NCBI RefSeq assembly: GCF_001610875.1
Contig: NZ_CP011272.1
Location: 4,569,988 to 4,633,987, forward strand
Direction: 5' to 3'
DNA length: 64,000 nt
From: Pirellula sp. SH-Sr6A
GTDB lineage: Bacteria; Planctomycetota; Planctomycetia; Pirellulales; Pirellulaceae
The notes beneath the pieces were generated by a model that was not told where the DNA came from, searched no databases, and saw nothing but the letters and a program-made list of their open reading frames with translations. Position 1 is the stretch's first letter. Every line of letters begins with the position of its first letter. Both the position numbers and the translations under genes were made by a program. Below are positions 5,219 to 11,559 of this stretch, piece after piece.

Positions 5219-6769
5219 ATGCACTGTTCGATCCAACCTATGCAGGATCTGTTGCCTACGGTGCGAATCCATACGGCTAGTTCGCATACCGTGCAATCGG
5301 TCCTGCTACGCTACTCCAAATCCTTTCGCTTCAGTCATCATGTTCCGTTCCATGAACGCCGTGTGCTGGATAAACTCCTCGACTGCCGTCGTGGGAGTTT
5401 CGGTTCCACCTACTATGGATGCGAGACATGCCAGCAAGGGCGCATTCTCTACAGCCAGTGCCATGATCGGCACTGTCCCAACTGCGGTTGGCTCAAGCGC
5501 AAAGCGTGGCTACAGCAGATTATCGCGTGGAATCTCCCCACCACCTACTACCACACGGTCTTTACCGTCCCGCATGAGCTCAATCCTCTGATCCGAGCCA
5601 ATCCGAGCGCTGTGTATCAGCTCTTCTTTCGAAGATCGCAAAAGACGTTGCTCGAGATCGCTCAACGAGAATTCGGCTGCAAGCCGGGGATTATTCTCAC
5701 GTTGCACACTTGGGGGCAGCGCATGCTGACCCATGTGCATATCCACGCCATGATGACCTCCGGTGGCGTCTCGCTCTCCACTGGGGATGCGAGTACCAAA
5801 CCCTGCTGGATCCCGATCCCTCCGGATGCACCAGGCATCCAAGAAGAAGTCTTAGCAGCCCTCTTTCAAAAGAAGTTCTTACGGGGATTGAAAATCCTCT
5901 TCGATCAAGGAAAACTCGACATTCCCCAAGAGATGGAATTCGAAGGGGTTCAAGACCGAGACTCGTTCCATCGGTGGCTTGAGCCTCTAGCGCAAAAGAA
6001 CTGGAAAGCCGATGCGCAAATCACTCCGGATGAACTGCAAACGCAGTTGGGCTGCGCCCGTTATCTTTCGGACTATATCCAAGGGGCAGCGATCTCCAAT
6101 GGCCGGATCGCCGAAGACAACGGGACGCACGTTACCATTCGGCAATGGGATTACCGAACCAACAAATCGGTCGAGGAGACCATGGAGGGAGAAGAGTTCG
6201 TTCGCCGGTTCTTGCTCCACATCGTTCCGAGCAACGTGCATCGCGTGCGCTATGCAGGTCTCTTTCAAGGGAAAGGGCGCAAGGAGACGCTTCAAAGAGT
6301 CCGCTTGCTCTTGGCCAAGCACAATGCTGATTCCCTAGGGAAGCGACATGCGTCGCTTCCCCCATCCGCGAGACTTCAAGAGCTTGAGCTTCCGAAGATC
6401 GATAATCGGCCCAAGTGCTTGCGGTGCGGTACGCCGGGGATGCGATTGGAAGGGTATCGCGATCGCATGGAGACTTGGGAGTTCATCCACCGGGTAGAGC
6501 ATGCGATCGAACAATACTCGAAGGCACCCACCACACTCGATCAATTGATCCGATCGAAAGCACGACTTGAGAGCTTTGCTCCGAAGCAAGGGTTGCTTGG
6601 CAACTGGAAGCGGGCACTAGCTGTAAAGGAGCTCTTAGCATGGACGGTTGTACAGTGTTGCAGCGATGACCTGTGTGATGGAGAGAATCTGCAAACCAAC
6701 GAAGCATCCCTTCGCTTCGGGGCAACCTGCTGTTACGTCTCGGTGAATCTTCCATTACCGGAAATCTAA
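5219..6769 (+). CDS. IS91-family Y2 (HUH) transposase
   Basis: A 516-residue rolling-circle transposase. An N-terminal zinc-binding domain has CxxC (68, 71) and CHDRHCPNC (81-89) ligands. The HUH metal site reads HVHIH (172-176). The paired catalytic tyrosines appear as YLSDY (282/286), the Y2 arrangement of IS91/IS801/ISCR transposases. The ~120 residues after the core include another CxxC pair near KCLRCG and make the protein longer than the IS91 prototype (~400 residues). It is divergent from the ATPase gene. Such enzymes nick one strand at the 3' end (oriIS), copy by rolling circle and can drag flanking DNA with them, which would suit the RHS cassettes on either side. The chosen ATG could be replaced by the one at codon 8. 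Confidence 0.92.
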   Translation: MHCSIQPMQDLLPTVRIHTASSHTVQSVLLRYSKSFRFSHHVPFHERRVLDKLLDCRRGSFGSTYYGCETCQQGRILYSQCHDRHCPNCGWLKRKAWLQQIIAWNLPTTYYHTVFTVPHELNPLIRANPSAVYQLFFRRSQKTLLEIAQREFGCKPGIILTLHTWGQRMLTHVHIHAMMTSGGVSLSTGDASTKPCWIPIPPDAPGIQEEVLAALFQKKFLRGLKILFDQGKLDIPQEMEFEGVQDRDSFHRWLEPLAQKNWKADAQITPDELQTQLGCARYLSDYIQGAAISNGRIAEDNGTHVTIRQWDYRTNKSVEETMEGEEFVRRFLLHIVPSNVHRVRYAGLFQGKGRKETLQRVRLLLAKHNADSLGKRHASLPPSARLQELELPKIDNRPKCLRCGTPGMRLEGYRDRMETWEFIHRVEHAIEQYSKAPTTLDQLIRSKARLESFAPKQGLLGNWKRALAVKELLAWTVVQCCSDDLCDGENLQTNEASLRFGATCCYVSVNLPLPEI

Positions 6770-7653: not shown

Positions 7654-9045
7654 TTACTTGCCGGGCTCGGCAGCTCCGTAGTCCTGCCAAGAATTAGACT
7701 CGCAATCGAAAGTCCACGTTTTGCCACATGGATTGCTCGGGAGGAGAGTCGGATTTGACGGGTTAACGAAATCCTCCATGAGATCTATCATGTCGTCGTG
7801 ACAGAAAAATCTTGCCTTGCATTTCCCGTCACACTCACACTTTTTCTTGGTGTTCTTGCAACACTCTCGCATTGCTAATGGGACGTATTTTTCAAATATG
7901 GAGTATATCAATTTCTTCCCACCCGGTTTGGACGTGTCAATTAATTCATTTGTGTCTGGCCAGTTTCTTGGGAATAGTTCGCTCTCGGGCTTCTCGAATC
8001 TTTCTCGGCATACTCGTTTGCCATCTCGAAGCCAGCAACAGATTGGAGCAATTTTGTCGCATTTCTCAAACTCAGGTAAGAAGCTAGGGTGATTTATCCC
8101 TGCCTCGAATATGGGGCGATAGCCCCCTCGAGGTCCATGAGTAATCAAAAACCAAGTTGTGCACTTCAACCCGTGTGGATCCAATTGAACCATAGGTTGA
8201 TTGAATACGAATCTGCATAGATTTAAATCTAATGAGCGATACCCGATCGGATCCCTCCCCATGAACCGTCCTGCAAGCCCACTCATCCACCTCGCCCTGA
8301 AGTGATACAGGCCGAGCGTTTGATCCCATTCACGTCCCGTGTAGGTGTAGCGATTATTGATCGCAGAACTCGAGAGGACCGAGCCAGAACCATCCAAGAT
8401 GGTTGGCTGGCCGTAGGCTGTGTAGGCGTAGCGCTCGGCTACGGAGCCTGAAGAAGTGGTCACTGCCGTGATGCTGAACTGCTGGTTGCGGTGGTAGTAA
8501 TGAATCGTTCCGCTGGTTCCAGTTGCCTTGCGCACCACCGGTTCGTCGATGTAGCTAGCGTACACATAACGATGCGTTGGCGAGCTAGGAGCATCCCCGT
8601 ATTCATAATCGGCGATTGTCTGCTGGTCCTGCTGCACATAAACGAACGAGCCTGAGGTTCCTTGCCGCGCTACCCTTCGGCCAAGTGCATCGTACTGGAA
8701 CGTGACATCGTTCGAACCGTTGTTGTCCACATCGGCGCTCTTGAGCTTGTTGTCGAAGTCATAGCTAACGGCCATGGCCACGCCACTGGTAGTGAGCGTC
8801 GTCGGGAGAAGGGTAATGTTCCCCTTCACATCCATCGTGACGTTCTGTCCCCCTGCGGTGAGCAGCTCGTGGGTCGGACCATAGTTGCGATTCTGCGCTG
8901 TGCCATTGGGGGTGATGCTGGGCCAGTCACCTACACTAGTAAGACTCCACGATTGGCTAAACGTTCCTCTGGTACGGGCGAAGCCGGTGAGACGGTCCTC
9001 GTCGACATTGCTGGTGCCTGCTGAAGTGAACCCGTAATTGCTCAT
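7654..9045 (-). CDS. RHS repeat-associated core protein fragment with variable C-terminal tip
   Basis: 463 residues. About residues 85-275 are RHS/YD-type core, with FQYDALGRRVARQ, then GLYHFRARWMSGLAGRF and DPIGY closing the core. The ~180-residue tip is Cys/Lys-rich (CCKNTKKKCECDGKCKARFFC) and is not a toxin family I recognise. Full RHS proteins exceed 1000 residues. The frame has an in-frame TAA 15 bases upstream of the ATG, so the gene is 5'-truncated or rebuilt. It shares a ~218 bp, ~90% identical core with the RHS gene at 259-1626 but has an unrelated tip, as in RHS tip exchange. The lipoprotein gene at 7632-7120 follows after 21 bases. Without the export and shell regions it may be a silent cassette. 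Confidence 0.75.
   Translation of the reverse strand: MSNYGFTSAGTSNVDEDRLTGFARTRGTFSQSWSLTSVGDWPSITPNGTAQNRNYGPTHELLTAGGQNVTMDVKGNITLLPTTLTTSGVAMAVSYDFDNKLKSADVDNNGSNDVTFQYDALGRRVARQGTSGSFVYVQQDQQTIADYEYGDAPSSPTHRYVYASYIDEPVVRKATGTSGTIHYYHRNQQFSITAVTTSSGSVAERYAYTAYGQPTILDGSGSVLSSSAINNRYTYTGREWDQTLGLYHFRARWMSGLAGRFMGRDPIGYRSLDLNLCRFVFNQPMVQLDPHGLKCTTWFLITHGPRGGYRPIFEAGINHPSFLPEFEKCDKIAPICCWLRDGKRVCRERFEKPESELFPRNWPDTNELIDTSKPGGKKLIYSIFEKYVPLAMRECCKNTKKKCECDGKCKARFFCHDDMIDLMEDFVNPSNPTLLPSNPCGKTWTFDCESNSWQDYGAAEPGK
8281..8498 (-). repeat. RHS core direct repeat, copy B
   Basis: Same-strand partner of 1021-1238, offset by 7260 bases. Homologous recombination between the two copies would delete the mobile module and one immunity candidate and join the tip of copy A to the longer core of copy B. 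Confidence 0.9.
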
Positions 9046-9722: not shown

Positions 9723-9757
9723 ATAAAAAAACCGTCGGAAGGAAGCCAACCGACGGC
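9723..9757 (-). terminator. Rho-independent terminator of the histone-like unit
   Basis: CCGTCGG (9732-9738) and CCGACGG (9750-9756) form a perfect stem with an 11-base loop. Read on the minus strand the stem is followed by a run of seven T. It lies 69 bases after the stop of the lysine/alanine-rich gene. Confidence 0.8.
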
Positions 9758-9824
9758 TTTTGTTTTGAGTTGCTTGGAGCAGATCTCTGGCAGAAGCCAG
9801 ATGCCCGAGCAGAGCAACGTTTGA

Positions 9825-9989
9825 TTAGGAAGGAGACTTGGTGGTCGTCTTCTTAGCAGCCTTCTTCTTAGCAACCTTCTTCTTGGTTGCGGCCTTCTTT
9901 GGTGCAGCCTTCTTCTTAGCAGCCTTCTTCTTGGCTACTTTCTTCTTGGTTGCAGCCTTCTTCGTTGCTCCAGCTTTTTTCTTGGCCAC
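9825..9989 (-). CDS. Lysine/alanine-rich histone H1-like DNA-binding protein, 54 aa
   Basis: A GTG start at 9989 is preceded by a strong Shine-Dalgarno (GGAGG, 8 bases upstream), and the frame ends in TAA at 9827-9825. The protein is almost wholly Lys, Ala and Thr in imperfect repeats of KKAA and KKKVAKKKAA, like the C-terminal tails of histone H1 and bacterial HC1/HC2-type nucleoid proteins. Such tails bind and compact DNA without sequence specificity. There is no globular domain. It sits in a compact unit with its own promoter (10188-10215), an upstream micro-ORF and a strong terminator, which argues that it is a real, expressed gene. The repetitive DNA also gives an open opposite frame full of Phe/Ala, which is an artefact. 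Confidence 0.8.
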   Translation of the reverse strand: MAKKKAGATKKAATKKKVAKKKAAKKKAAPKKAATKKKVAKKKAAKKTTTKSPS

Positions 9990-10064
9990 GGATATATCCT
10001 CCGAAAAGCGAAACTTAGTCGCTGCAGATTCGCCTTCCAGAAGCAGTTGGTTGGCGGTCTGGTC

Positions 10065-10118
10065 TCAGCAACCGATACTAAAAATCCTTCGTTGAACTCG
10101 CCTCGACTTTGACATCAT
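10065..10118 (-). CDS. Basic micro-ORF upstream of the histone-like gene
   Basis: AGGAGG (complement of 10121-10126) lies 5 bases before the ATG at 10115; another ATG at 10118 is in frame. From 10115 it encodes MSKSRRVQRRIFSIGC and stops at 10067-10065. It lies between the promoter candidate and the histone-like gene, with 75 bases to that GTG. The Arg-rich sequence could be a small DNA/RNA-binding peptide, or the frame may be a translated leader that controls the downstream gene. The Shine-Dalgarno is the main support. Confidence 0.4.
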   Translation of the reverse strand: MMSKSRRVQRRIFSIGC

Positions 10119-10187
10119 GTCCTCCTCACAATACGTCGCGAGGGAAGCCTGAGGTGGTTCCGCAAAGGAACAACATCCAATGTCGTA

Positions 10188-10215
10188 TTTGTATAAAAGT
10201 CGAAACTTAATGCAA
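10188..10215 (-). promoter_or_regulatory. Sigma70-like promoter for the histone-like unit
   Basis: On the minus strand TTGCAT (complement of 10210-10215), a 16-base spacer and TACAAA (complement of 10188-10193). A perfect inverted repeat GTCGAAA/TTTCGAC (10199-10205 and 10221-10227) overlaps the spacer and could be an operator. The surrounding DNA is AT-rich relative to the region. Confidence 0.45.
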
Positions 10216-10262
10216 CATCTTTTCGACAATTTTTCCACATAAATGAAACCAATTTTCCACGC

Positions 10263-10743: not shown

Positions 10744-11559
10744 TTACCAGACAGAACCACCTCTTCCCTGTTGCAGCATCTGCCAATTGGAGTACGCCAA
10801 CGAGGCGAAGAACAAGGTCCCAATCGGACCTCCTCCTGTTTGATAAAACCAAACTGCGACCAACGCGCCCACGATCACTCCGAGCATGCATGCCTCTTGA
10901 AGCCCATCACGTCGCATCACGATGCCGATGAGGTGCCGCGCGATCTGACCGCCATCGAGGGGATACACAGGCAACAAATTGAAAAGGGCCCACCAAATAC
11001 TGCAACTGACCAGAAAGTTGATCGCGCAGTACGAGTACGCGTTGGAGGGAAGGGGTAGTCGAACCCACTCCATACCCAACCTCTCGGCGATATCGCTAAA
11101 CATCCACACAGGAATGCCACAACCGATCGCGATCGCCCCCACCACGACTCCCAATGCGATCTGAATGGCAGGACCAGCCGCCGAGATCACCAGATGGTTC
11201 GCGTGCGTGAGCCTTGATCGCCGTCCCTGCCGCGCCCACAAAAGCCCCGCTCCAGGGATGGCCAATCCGCCCATTTGATAGAGAACGATTTCCGCATCGA
11301 TCCCAAAGTACCGAAAGGCGAGAGCATGCCCGAGTTCATGCACCAGAATGCTCACAAACGAGCAGAGAACCCACAGCAAAAGCAGCAGCGCGAAATTGGA
11401 TGGCACGTTCATCATCGTGAACATGTCATGCAACCCTCGAGCCTGCGTGTATCCGAAGGCCGCGCTGAAAGCCCAAAACAACCACGTCACTCGGACAGGA
11501 AACCCAAACAGCTGGAACCTCCAGTCGTAACTGCTCGATTGCGGCTCACTCAAAAACAT
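10744..11559 (-). CDS. Site-2 protease family (M50) membrane zinc metalloprotease
   Basis: A 271-residue polytopic membrane protein. The zinc motif HELGH is at 74-78 within a transmembrane helix (SFVSILVHELGHALAF), and the distal ligand motif NLLPVYPLDGGQ lies near residue 205. Both are hallmarks of M50/S2P intramembrane proteases. About six hydrophobic segments are visible. Such enzymes cut membrane-anchored regulators or other substrates within the bilayer; the substrate here cannot be told. It lacks the PDZ domains of RseP and is close to the short SpoIVFB-like forms. The start overlaps the end of the aminotransferase gene by 14 bases and has a GA-rich ribosome site upstream, so it is probably the last gene of a coaD-aminotransferase-protease unit. 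Confidence 0.88.
   Translation of the reverse strand: MFLSEPQSSSYDWRFQLFGFPVRVTWLFWAFSAAFGYTQARGLHDMFTMMNVPSNFALLLLLWVLCSFVSILVHELGHALAFRYFGIDAEIVLYQMGGLAIPGAGLLWARQGRRSRLTHANHLVISAAGPAIQIALGVVVGAIAIGCGIPVWMFSDIAERLGMEWVRLPLPSNAYSYCAINFLVSCSIWWALFNLLPVYPLDGGQIARHLIGIVMRRDGLQEACMLGVIVGALVAVWFYQTGGGPIGTLFFASLAYSNWQMLQQGRGGSVW

Follow-up and report, generated by a model that had tools for sequence, protein, structure and literature searches.

A conserved transcription unit for a short histone H1-like polycation in Pirellula sp. SH-Sr6A and other Pirellulales

A 54-residue protein dominated by lysine and alanine is encoded in Pirellula sp. SH-Sr6A by a compact transcription unit that recurs, with its promoter, in other genera of the Pirellulales. 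We favor, at a probability of about 0.6, the interpretation that this is a single-gene chromatin-protein unit, in which a short H1/HC2-like polycation, expressed from a dedicated promoter with leader-tuned translation, would compact DNA. The unit was found in a 64-kb stretch of DNA (the window, which is the whole stretch analyzed) at 4.57-4.63 Mb of the 6.53-Mb single-contig genome. Comparison of sequences supports the coding gene, the promoter, the hairpin, the terminator, the order-wide conservation and the neighborhood; it is because of this conservation, and not from the window by itself, that the unit was judged to be more than a chance arrangement. How planctomycetes condense their nucleoids is an unsettled question: a tomography study of Gemmata states that no histone homologue had been identified and names DNA-binding proteins as possible participants (PMC3440768), and later work lists Planctomycetota histone-fold proteins (PMC11390915). 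The H1-like gene, being single-copy, widely conserved and marked by a recognizable promoter and neighbor, is a precise candidate for deletion.

Results

The H1-like gene and its protein

The open reading frame runs on the minus strand from a GTG at 9989 to a stop codon ending at 9825 (Table 1), and its product contains 25 Lys, 15 Ala and 6 Thr residues, with a pI of 11.4 and a charge of about +24. The gene is present as a single copy, and two HU-family genes are located elsewhere in the same genome. For 24 distinct complete units of the genus (L017 and L035, whose contigs end inside the gene, were left out), the pooled pS was 0.314 and the pN 0.033, and pS exceeded pN in 274 of the 276 unit pairs; since related pairs are non-independent, this is a strong indication but does not amount to a formal test. 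These comparisons support the view that the low-complexity H1-like frame is coding and under purifying selection. The start codon was GTG in 64 and ATG in 6 of 70 distinct units, a set shaped by the finder, which required ATG, GTG or TTG followed by GC and a fixed spacing of the promoter boxes. L017/L035 represent a divergent unit of the same genus that has the same promoter block and a leader shorter by about 80-95 nt; it starts with ATG and encodes another Lys/Ala protein, its gene running off the contig. An antisense ORF at 9838-10095 (+) was rejected as a mirror of the Lys repeats.

The protein belongs to the descriptive kind of bacterial H1-like polycations, being short, Lys/Ala-dominated, strongly basic and without a known folded domain. 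It scored 13.8 bits with the HC2 model (PF07382; gathering cut-off 40) and 10.1 and 14.8 bits with the NCBIfam H1-like models NF038052 and NF038053 (cut-offs 135 and 80, respectively); the Pfam scan returned no family except this weak HC2 match, and no PF00216 (HU/IHF), and a PDB sequence search gave no match at E<=1. With 54 residues and no match to a histone-fold family, it also differs from the three-helix histone fold of about 65 residues. The HC2 model did not recover the gene in a search of the SH-Sr6A genome, and its match there at 2570506 was rejected, as it lies opposite a Gly/Pro/Leu-rich repeat ORF. At E<=0.1 the model matched 60 of 118 class genomes, nine of them above the cut-off, and 2 of 14 control genomes. 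For G309, a relative that shares the promoter, the genome search gave 40.6 bits, and a scan of its 80-aa protein gave 17.9 bits. Judged by its sequence, the protein can reasonably be expected to work like an H1-like polycation; HC2 identity is not claimed.

Limits of the transcription unit

An earlier note on this DNA had described a self-contained histone H1-like transcription unit at 9723-10215, composed of a promoter, a micro-ORF, a strong ribosome site, a 54-residue Lys/Ala protein and a T-tract terminator. Cross-genome comparison gave the unit good support and bore out the protein, the ribosome site and the terminator, whose stem covaries (98.3% of pairs kept in 24 units, with two-sided changes at 4 of 10 pairs). 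Because the conserved promoter block runs to 10260, with its -35-like TTGCAT beginning at 10215, the very end of that interval, the unit extends about 45 bases farther upstream. The micro-ORF did not survive: its start, length and peptide differ between units, and it was rejected as a leader peptide. An ATG occurs near its place in 10 of 25 distinct units, preceded by a Shine-Dalgarno match in only two, SH-Sr6A and its nearest relative. The leader hairpin, the wider conservation of the promoter, the preponderance of GTG starts, the 3'-UTR hairpin and the M50-peptidase neighbor go beyond the earlier note.

Table 1. Features of the H1-like unit and its surroundings in the window
Feature	Position	Strand	Remark
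H1-like Lys/Ala protein gene, GTG start	9825..9989	-	pN/pS 0.106 (24 units)
Ribosome site GGAGG	9998..10002	-	8 nt 5' of GTG; invariant in 24-row alignment (genus)
Leader hairpin, conserved loop ACTGCTTC	10017..10073	-	covariation in 24 sequences; 5' of ribosome site
Candidate micro-ORF (17 aa), outside conserved unit	10065..10118	-	peptide not conserved
Promoter block, phased GAAAA tracts with -35-like and -10-like boxes	10186..10260	-	near-invariant in genus
-10-like TACAAA	10188..10193	-	CGTACAA-type box conserved in relatives
-35-like TTGCAT	10210..10215	-	constant spacing to -10-like box across genera
Promoter core TGTCGAAAAGATGTTGCA	10211..10228	-	one perfect copy in SH-Sr6A genome
Intrinsic terminator	9726..9761	-	stem CCGTCGG/CCGACGG (7 bp, GC-rich), then T7
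3'-UTR hairpin GTTGCTC...GCAAC	9769..9818	-	13 units of one clade, covariation
Peptidase family M50 gene, upstream neighbor, same strand	10744..11559	-	PF02163 54.1 bits

Between the stop codon and the terminator, a 3'-UTR hairpin could be aligned in 13 units from a single clade of the genus (the remaining 11 of the 24 were left out), with 98.6% of cells paired and both sides changed at 4 of 17 pairs; it could yield a 3'-UTR-derived small RNA. The Rfam scan of the window gave only a distant tRNA above cut-off, and a match of STnc240 over the terminator (24.4 bits against a cut-off of 55, E 0.3) was taken as chance.

Promoter block

A consensus sigma-70 scan gave no promoter match in the region, so the promoter claimed in the earlier note needed other evidence. 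In a first alignment within the genus, of the SH-Sr6A unit with 16 further loci (duplicates from one genome among them, and L017 running off its contig), a block of about 75 bp was almost unchanged, with little conservation farther upstream; the promoter stands as a near-invariant block, and not as a sigma-70 consensus. On these alignments it is the most conserved part of the unit. Of the 27 genomes of the genus, 26 contain a promoter 28-mer without any change. This 28-mer occurred once in the SH-Sr6A genome at <=3 mismatches and was found within 3 mismatches in 36 of 241 family genomes, representing 7 of 68 genera, with none in the backward control. The -35/-10 spacing was fixed by the finder of the 70 units; the 28-mer search and another comparison were free of that constraint. 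We take TTGCAT-N16-TACAAA to be a weak sigma-70 fit and TGTTGC-N16-CGTACA to be an ECF-like layout. Some relatives have GG-N10-GC, a sigma-54-type pattern; this reading was rejected, since SH-Sr6A has CG at that place and a fixed distance to TACAA favors -35/-10 boxes. An overlapping ORF through the block (10252-10115) was rejected as well, since other units of the genus have an extra base after the -10 box that puts the ORF out of frame.

Beyond the genus we used a pattern of 21 bases, TGTCGAAAA-NN-TGTTGCA-N17-TACAA, with up to 3 mismatches. It matched 81 of 397 class genomes, the matches at 3 mismatches being mixed because the backward control also matches at a low rate. All 24 sites with 0-1 mismatch in these genomes, five of them in the genus of the Pirellula unit, had a K-rich ORF downstream. 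When distinct sites were sorted by mismatches, such an ORF was found within 400 nt at 32/32 (none), 17/17 (one), 8/10 (two), 5/26 (three) and 2/3 (four); part of these loci had been chosen by protein or neighbor gene and not by the pattern, ORF-less sites no more than 200 bases from the end of a locus are left out of the counts, and the sites are not phylogenetically independent. As background, the same ORF test was positive at 7 of 1272 positions of the window. An earlier ORF finder detected no ORF at 10 of 56 sites; the gene is present at eight of these, and L069 and L085 are spurious sites. Units were seen in at least four families of the Pirellulales (f1, f5, f8 and f13).

From 32 promoter representatives of the 70 distinct units we derived the consensus tttTgtcgAAAA.aTGTTGCa...CGTACAa.TAc. 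GAAAA tracts in these representatives have three starting positions relative to TGTTGCA, -7 (21 instances), -18 (7) and -39 to -42 (13), with steps of about 11 and 22 bp between them. One locus (L020, genome G125) carries several TGTNGAAAA-like repeats in a register of about 11 bp before its -35-like box. A protein search for the H1-like gene reached 7 of 149 family genomes, all of one genus, and the promoter signature recovers relatives missed by such a low-complexity search. No promoter match at <=6 mismatches was found in 11 HC2-like loci of other orders with a K-rich ORF (L106-L109, L114, L116, L121, L124, L126, L128 and L129). L127 and L137, from a genome of the same family, hold two K-rich ORFs without a promoter match, which look like other proteins.

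Leader RNA

The leader between promoter and gene is about 190 nt long and contains a three-step hairpin, which stops some 14 nt short of GGAGG. The alignment of 24 leaders from the genus had 94.3% of cells paired (both sides changed at 9 of 17 pairs), against 29-49% in controls with slid partners; the structure was predicted on the alignment on which it was tested, which favors the pairing score. The leader alignments A1 and A3 exclude L017/L035. The predicted fold has -22.3 kcal/mol, and in all 24 rows the loop core reads CTGCTTC. With a covariance model of the leader, each of 4 genomes from the genus yielded a single site, and 2 genomes of other genera yielded no site. Searched against 43 sources, the model matched the SH-Sr6A window and the sister-genus locus L022, directly before the gene, at 20.8 bits (E 0.014), and the match in L109 was at chance level (E 0.85); a search of the whole L022 genome found nothing. 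Because the model finds neither L017/L035 nor the other-genus units tried, L022 excepted, the hairpin is supported for the genus and one sister locus.

The M50 peptidase neighbor

Among 41 genomes of other genera that have the unit, 35 carried an M50 relative within the stretch compared, and where coordinates were compared (L020, L022, L048, L094, L095, L101, L105, L110 and L123) the gene was upstream and on the same strand. In three of the six genomes without it, the contig stops 74 to 878 bases upstream; the other three showed no M50 relative in about 3.7 to 7 kb upstream.

We also searched from the neighbor, in 29 genomes of the order chosen for a missing promoter match (12 screened only by the stricter 28-mer and 17 by the 21-base pattern, of which G021 has one match on another contig) and in one genome of another order, starting at the best M50 match and covering a flank of about 1.5 kb. 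A K-rich gene beginning with (V/M)AKKK lay downstream of the M50 gene in 21 of the 29 and not in the single genome outside the order. Of these 21, 14 had ATGTTGC and CGTA(C/A)A(G/A), four had a weaker promoter match with 4-5 mismatches (L172, L181, L189 and L192) and three had none (L171, L184 and L185); matches with 7 mismatches are at chance level, since they also occur without the gene (L182 and L183). No K-rich gene was found within the flank in the remaining eight (L167, L182, L183, L186, L187, L188, L191 and L193), which include one genome each from three other families of the order; the M50 match of L193 is probably another M50 paralogue. Taken together, the unit has the appearance of a single ancestral locus that some lineages have lost or relocated. 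The adjacency of the M50 peptidase and H1-like genes is conserved in many genomes of the order; any functional link between them is hypothetical. In a Rhodopirellula stress study, an HU-type gene is repressed and an M50 peptidase is listed, neither of which could be linked to the H1-like locus (PMC2754498).

Discussion

The recurring unit, its conserved promoter and its frequent upstream neighbor suggest an old, controlled DNA-packing protein. According to our preferred model, transcription would start near 10182 from a dedicated promoter, in which helically phased GAAAA tracts occupy an UP-element-like position ahead of the TTGCAT and TACAAA boxes, and would end at the intrinsic terminator that closes the unit, giving an mRNA of about 455 nt. 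The hairpin ahead of GGAGG may gate, and so tune, translation from the GTG, and the short, putatively unfolded polycation would neutralize DNA phosphate and help to condense the nucleoid. We infer DNA binding, compaction, promoter strength, leader control and regulation from these features; for the term nucleoid-compacting, we rely on composition and on the analogues Hc1, HC2 and AlgP. As a tentative extension, to which we give somewhat less than even odds, the locus may be an ancestral single-gene chromatin locus of the Pirellulales, whose private, partly near-frozen promoter and RNA leader switch make nucleoid condensation adjustable, possibly with feedback of the polycation on the A-tract promoter or the leader.

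Some of the evidence could be read differently. Instead of serving as a plain constitutive promoter, the promoter block might be bound by a specific regulator, for which a dedicated activator, an ECF sigma factor that reads TGTTGC-N16-CGTACA and the H1-like protein itself are candidates. For this speak the 28 bases, whose invariance in 26 of 27 genomes seems to exceed the demands of a plain promoter, the recurrent positions of the GAAAA tracts and the absence of a sigma-70 consensus match. We regard such a regulator site as possible but doubtful: the 17 nt that consistently separate TTGCA from TACAA are ordinary promoter layout, and in 10 genomes searched for the core at <=1 mismatch there was one good site each, the 5 extra matches being at the level of the backward control (4). 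One good site per genome makes a large regulon unlikely; a looser one is possible. That the regulator would be DnaA, coupling compaction to replication, is hardly credible. The sequence TGTGGAAAA in the block resembles what we take to be a DnaA box, and two GTGGAAAA sites lie 22 bp apart in SH-Sr6A and also in many units of the genus, but the fourth base of TGTNGAAAA differs across genera. The reading was rejected because neither TTWTNCACA- nor TGTNGAAAA-type sites occur in 6.6 kb around dnaA of SH-Sr6A, taken as the first of three Bac_DnaA-domain matches (G000:C1:631, 686907 and 6415041).

The product, too, may have another role. The ligand of such a polycation could be RNA or polyphosphate rather than DNA, and the protein might mainly organize polyphosphate or storage granules, or tether them to the nucleoid, as AlgP and PhaF of Pseudomonas do, with DNA compaction secondary. 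The AlgP study describes a KPAA-repeat tail resembling the H1 tail, with Lys/Ala repeats as in the Pirellula protein, DNA binding by an AlgP fragment and a need for AlgP in the even spacing of polyP granules (PMC9239181), and HC2 is mentioned in a PHB-granule proteome paper (PMC3783465). In AlgP and PhaF, however, the repeats are a tail on a larger protein, which in AlgP has a separate N-terminal domain, whereas in Pirellula the tail is the entire protein; its conserved neighbor (the M50 gene was the only neighbor considered) is a peptidase and no known granule gene. We therefore hold a granule role to be unlikely. Less probable still is that the RNA, as a structured leader and a 3' hairpin, is the functional product and the ORF incidental. 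The leader, 3' and terminator hairpins do covary, but the pN/pS of 0.11 and the GGAGG invariant within the genus speak for translation, and outside the genus the type of protein persists while the leader model goes unmatched save in L022.

Several known systems resemble the proposed chromatin-protein unit. Chlamydial HctB is Lys/Ala-rich, and the C-terminal tail of eukaryotic H1 is alike in composition; the Pirellula protein has no globular domain, and because of its low complexity no homology to eukaryotic H1 can be claimed. From HctA and HctB it differs in its 54 residues, its score far under the HC2 cut-off and its promoter, and Pirellula, unlike Chlamydia, is presumably not an intracellular parasite. 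HctA condenses the chlamydial genome, and a small RNA shuts off its translation (PMC8343073), which makes this small, very basic protein under post-transcriptional control an analogous precedent for an H1-like protein under RNA control; the Pirellula unit has a cis leader hairpin and not a known sRNA. With HU the protein would share the nucleoid as its likely site of action, without having an HU domain. A proposed chromatin role is common to it and the Planctomycetota histone-fold proteins, which have a histone fold (PMC11390915), whereas the Pirellula protein is a Lys/Ala repeat.

This kind of protein is already known; no description of the H1-like locus with its private promoter and leader was found in the open PMC text, with subscription papers and preprints outside this scope. 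Searches for defense and phage families gave no matches. A few kb from the unit there is an IS91-type transposase gene (5219-6769, +; Y2_Tnp and Zn_Tnp_IS91), and an ORF at 7654-9045 (-) has a weak RHS-repeat match and is possibly a C-terminal Rhs fragment.
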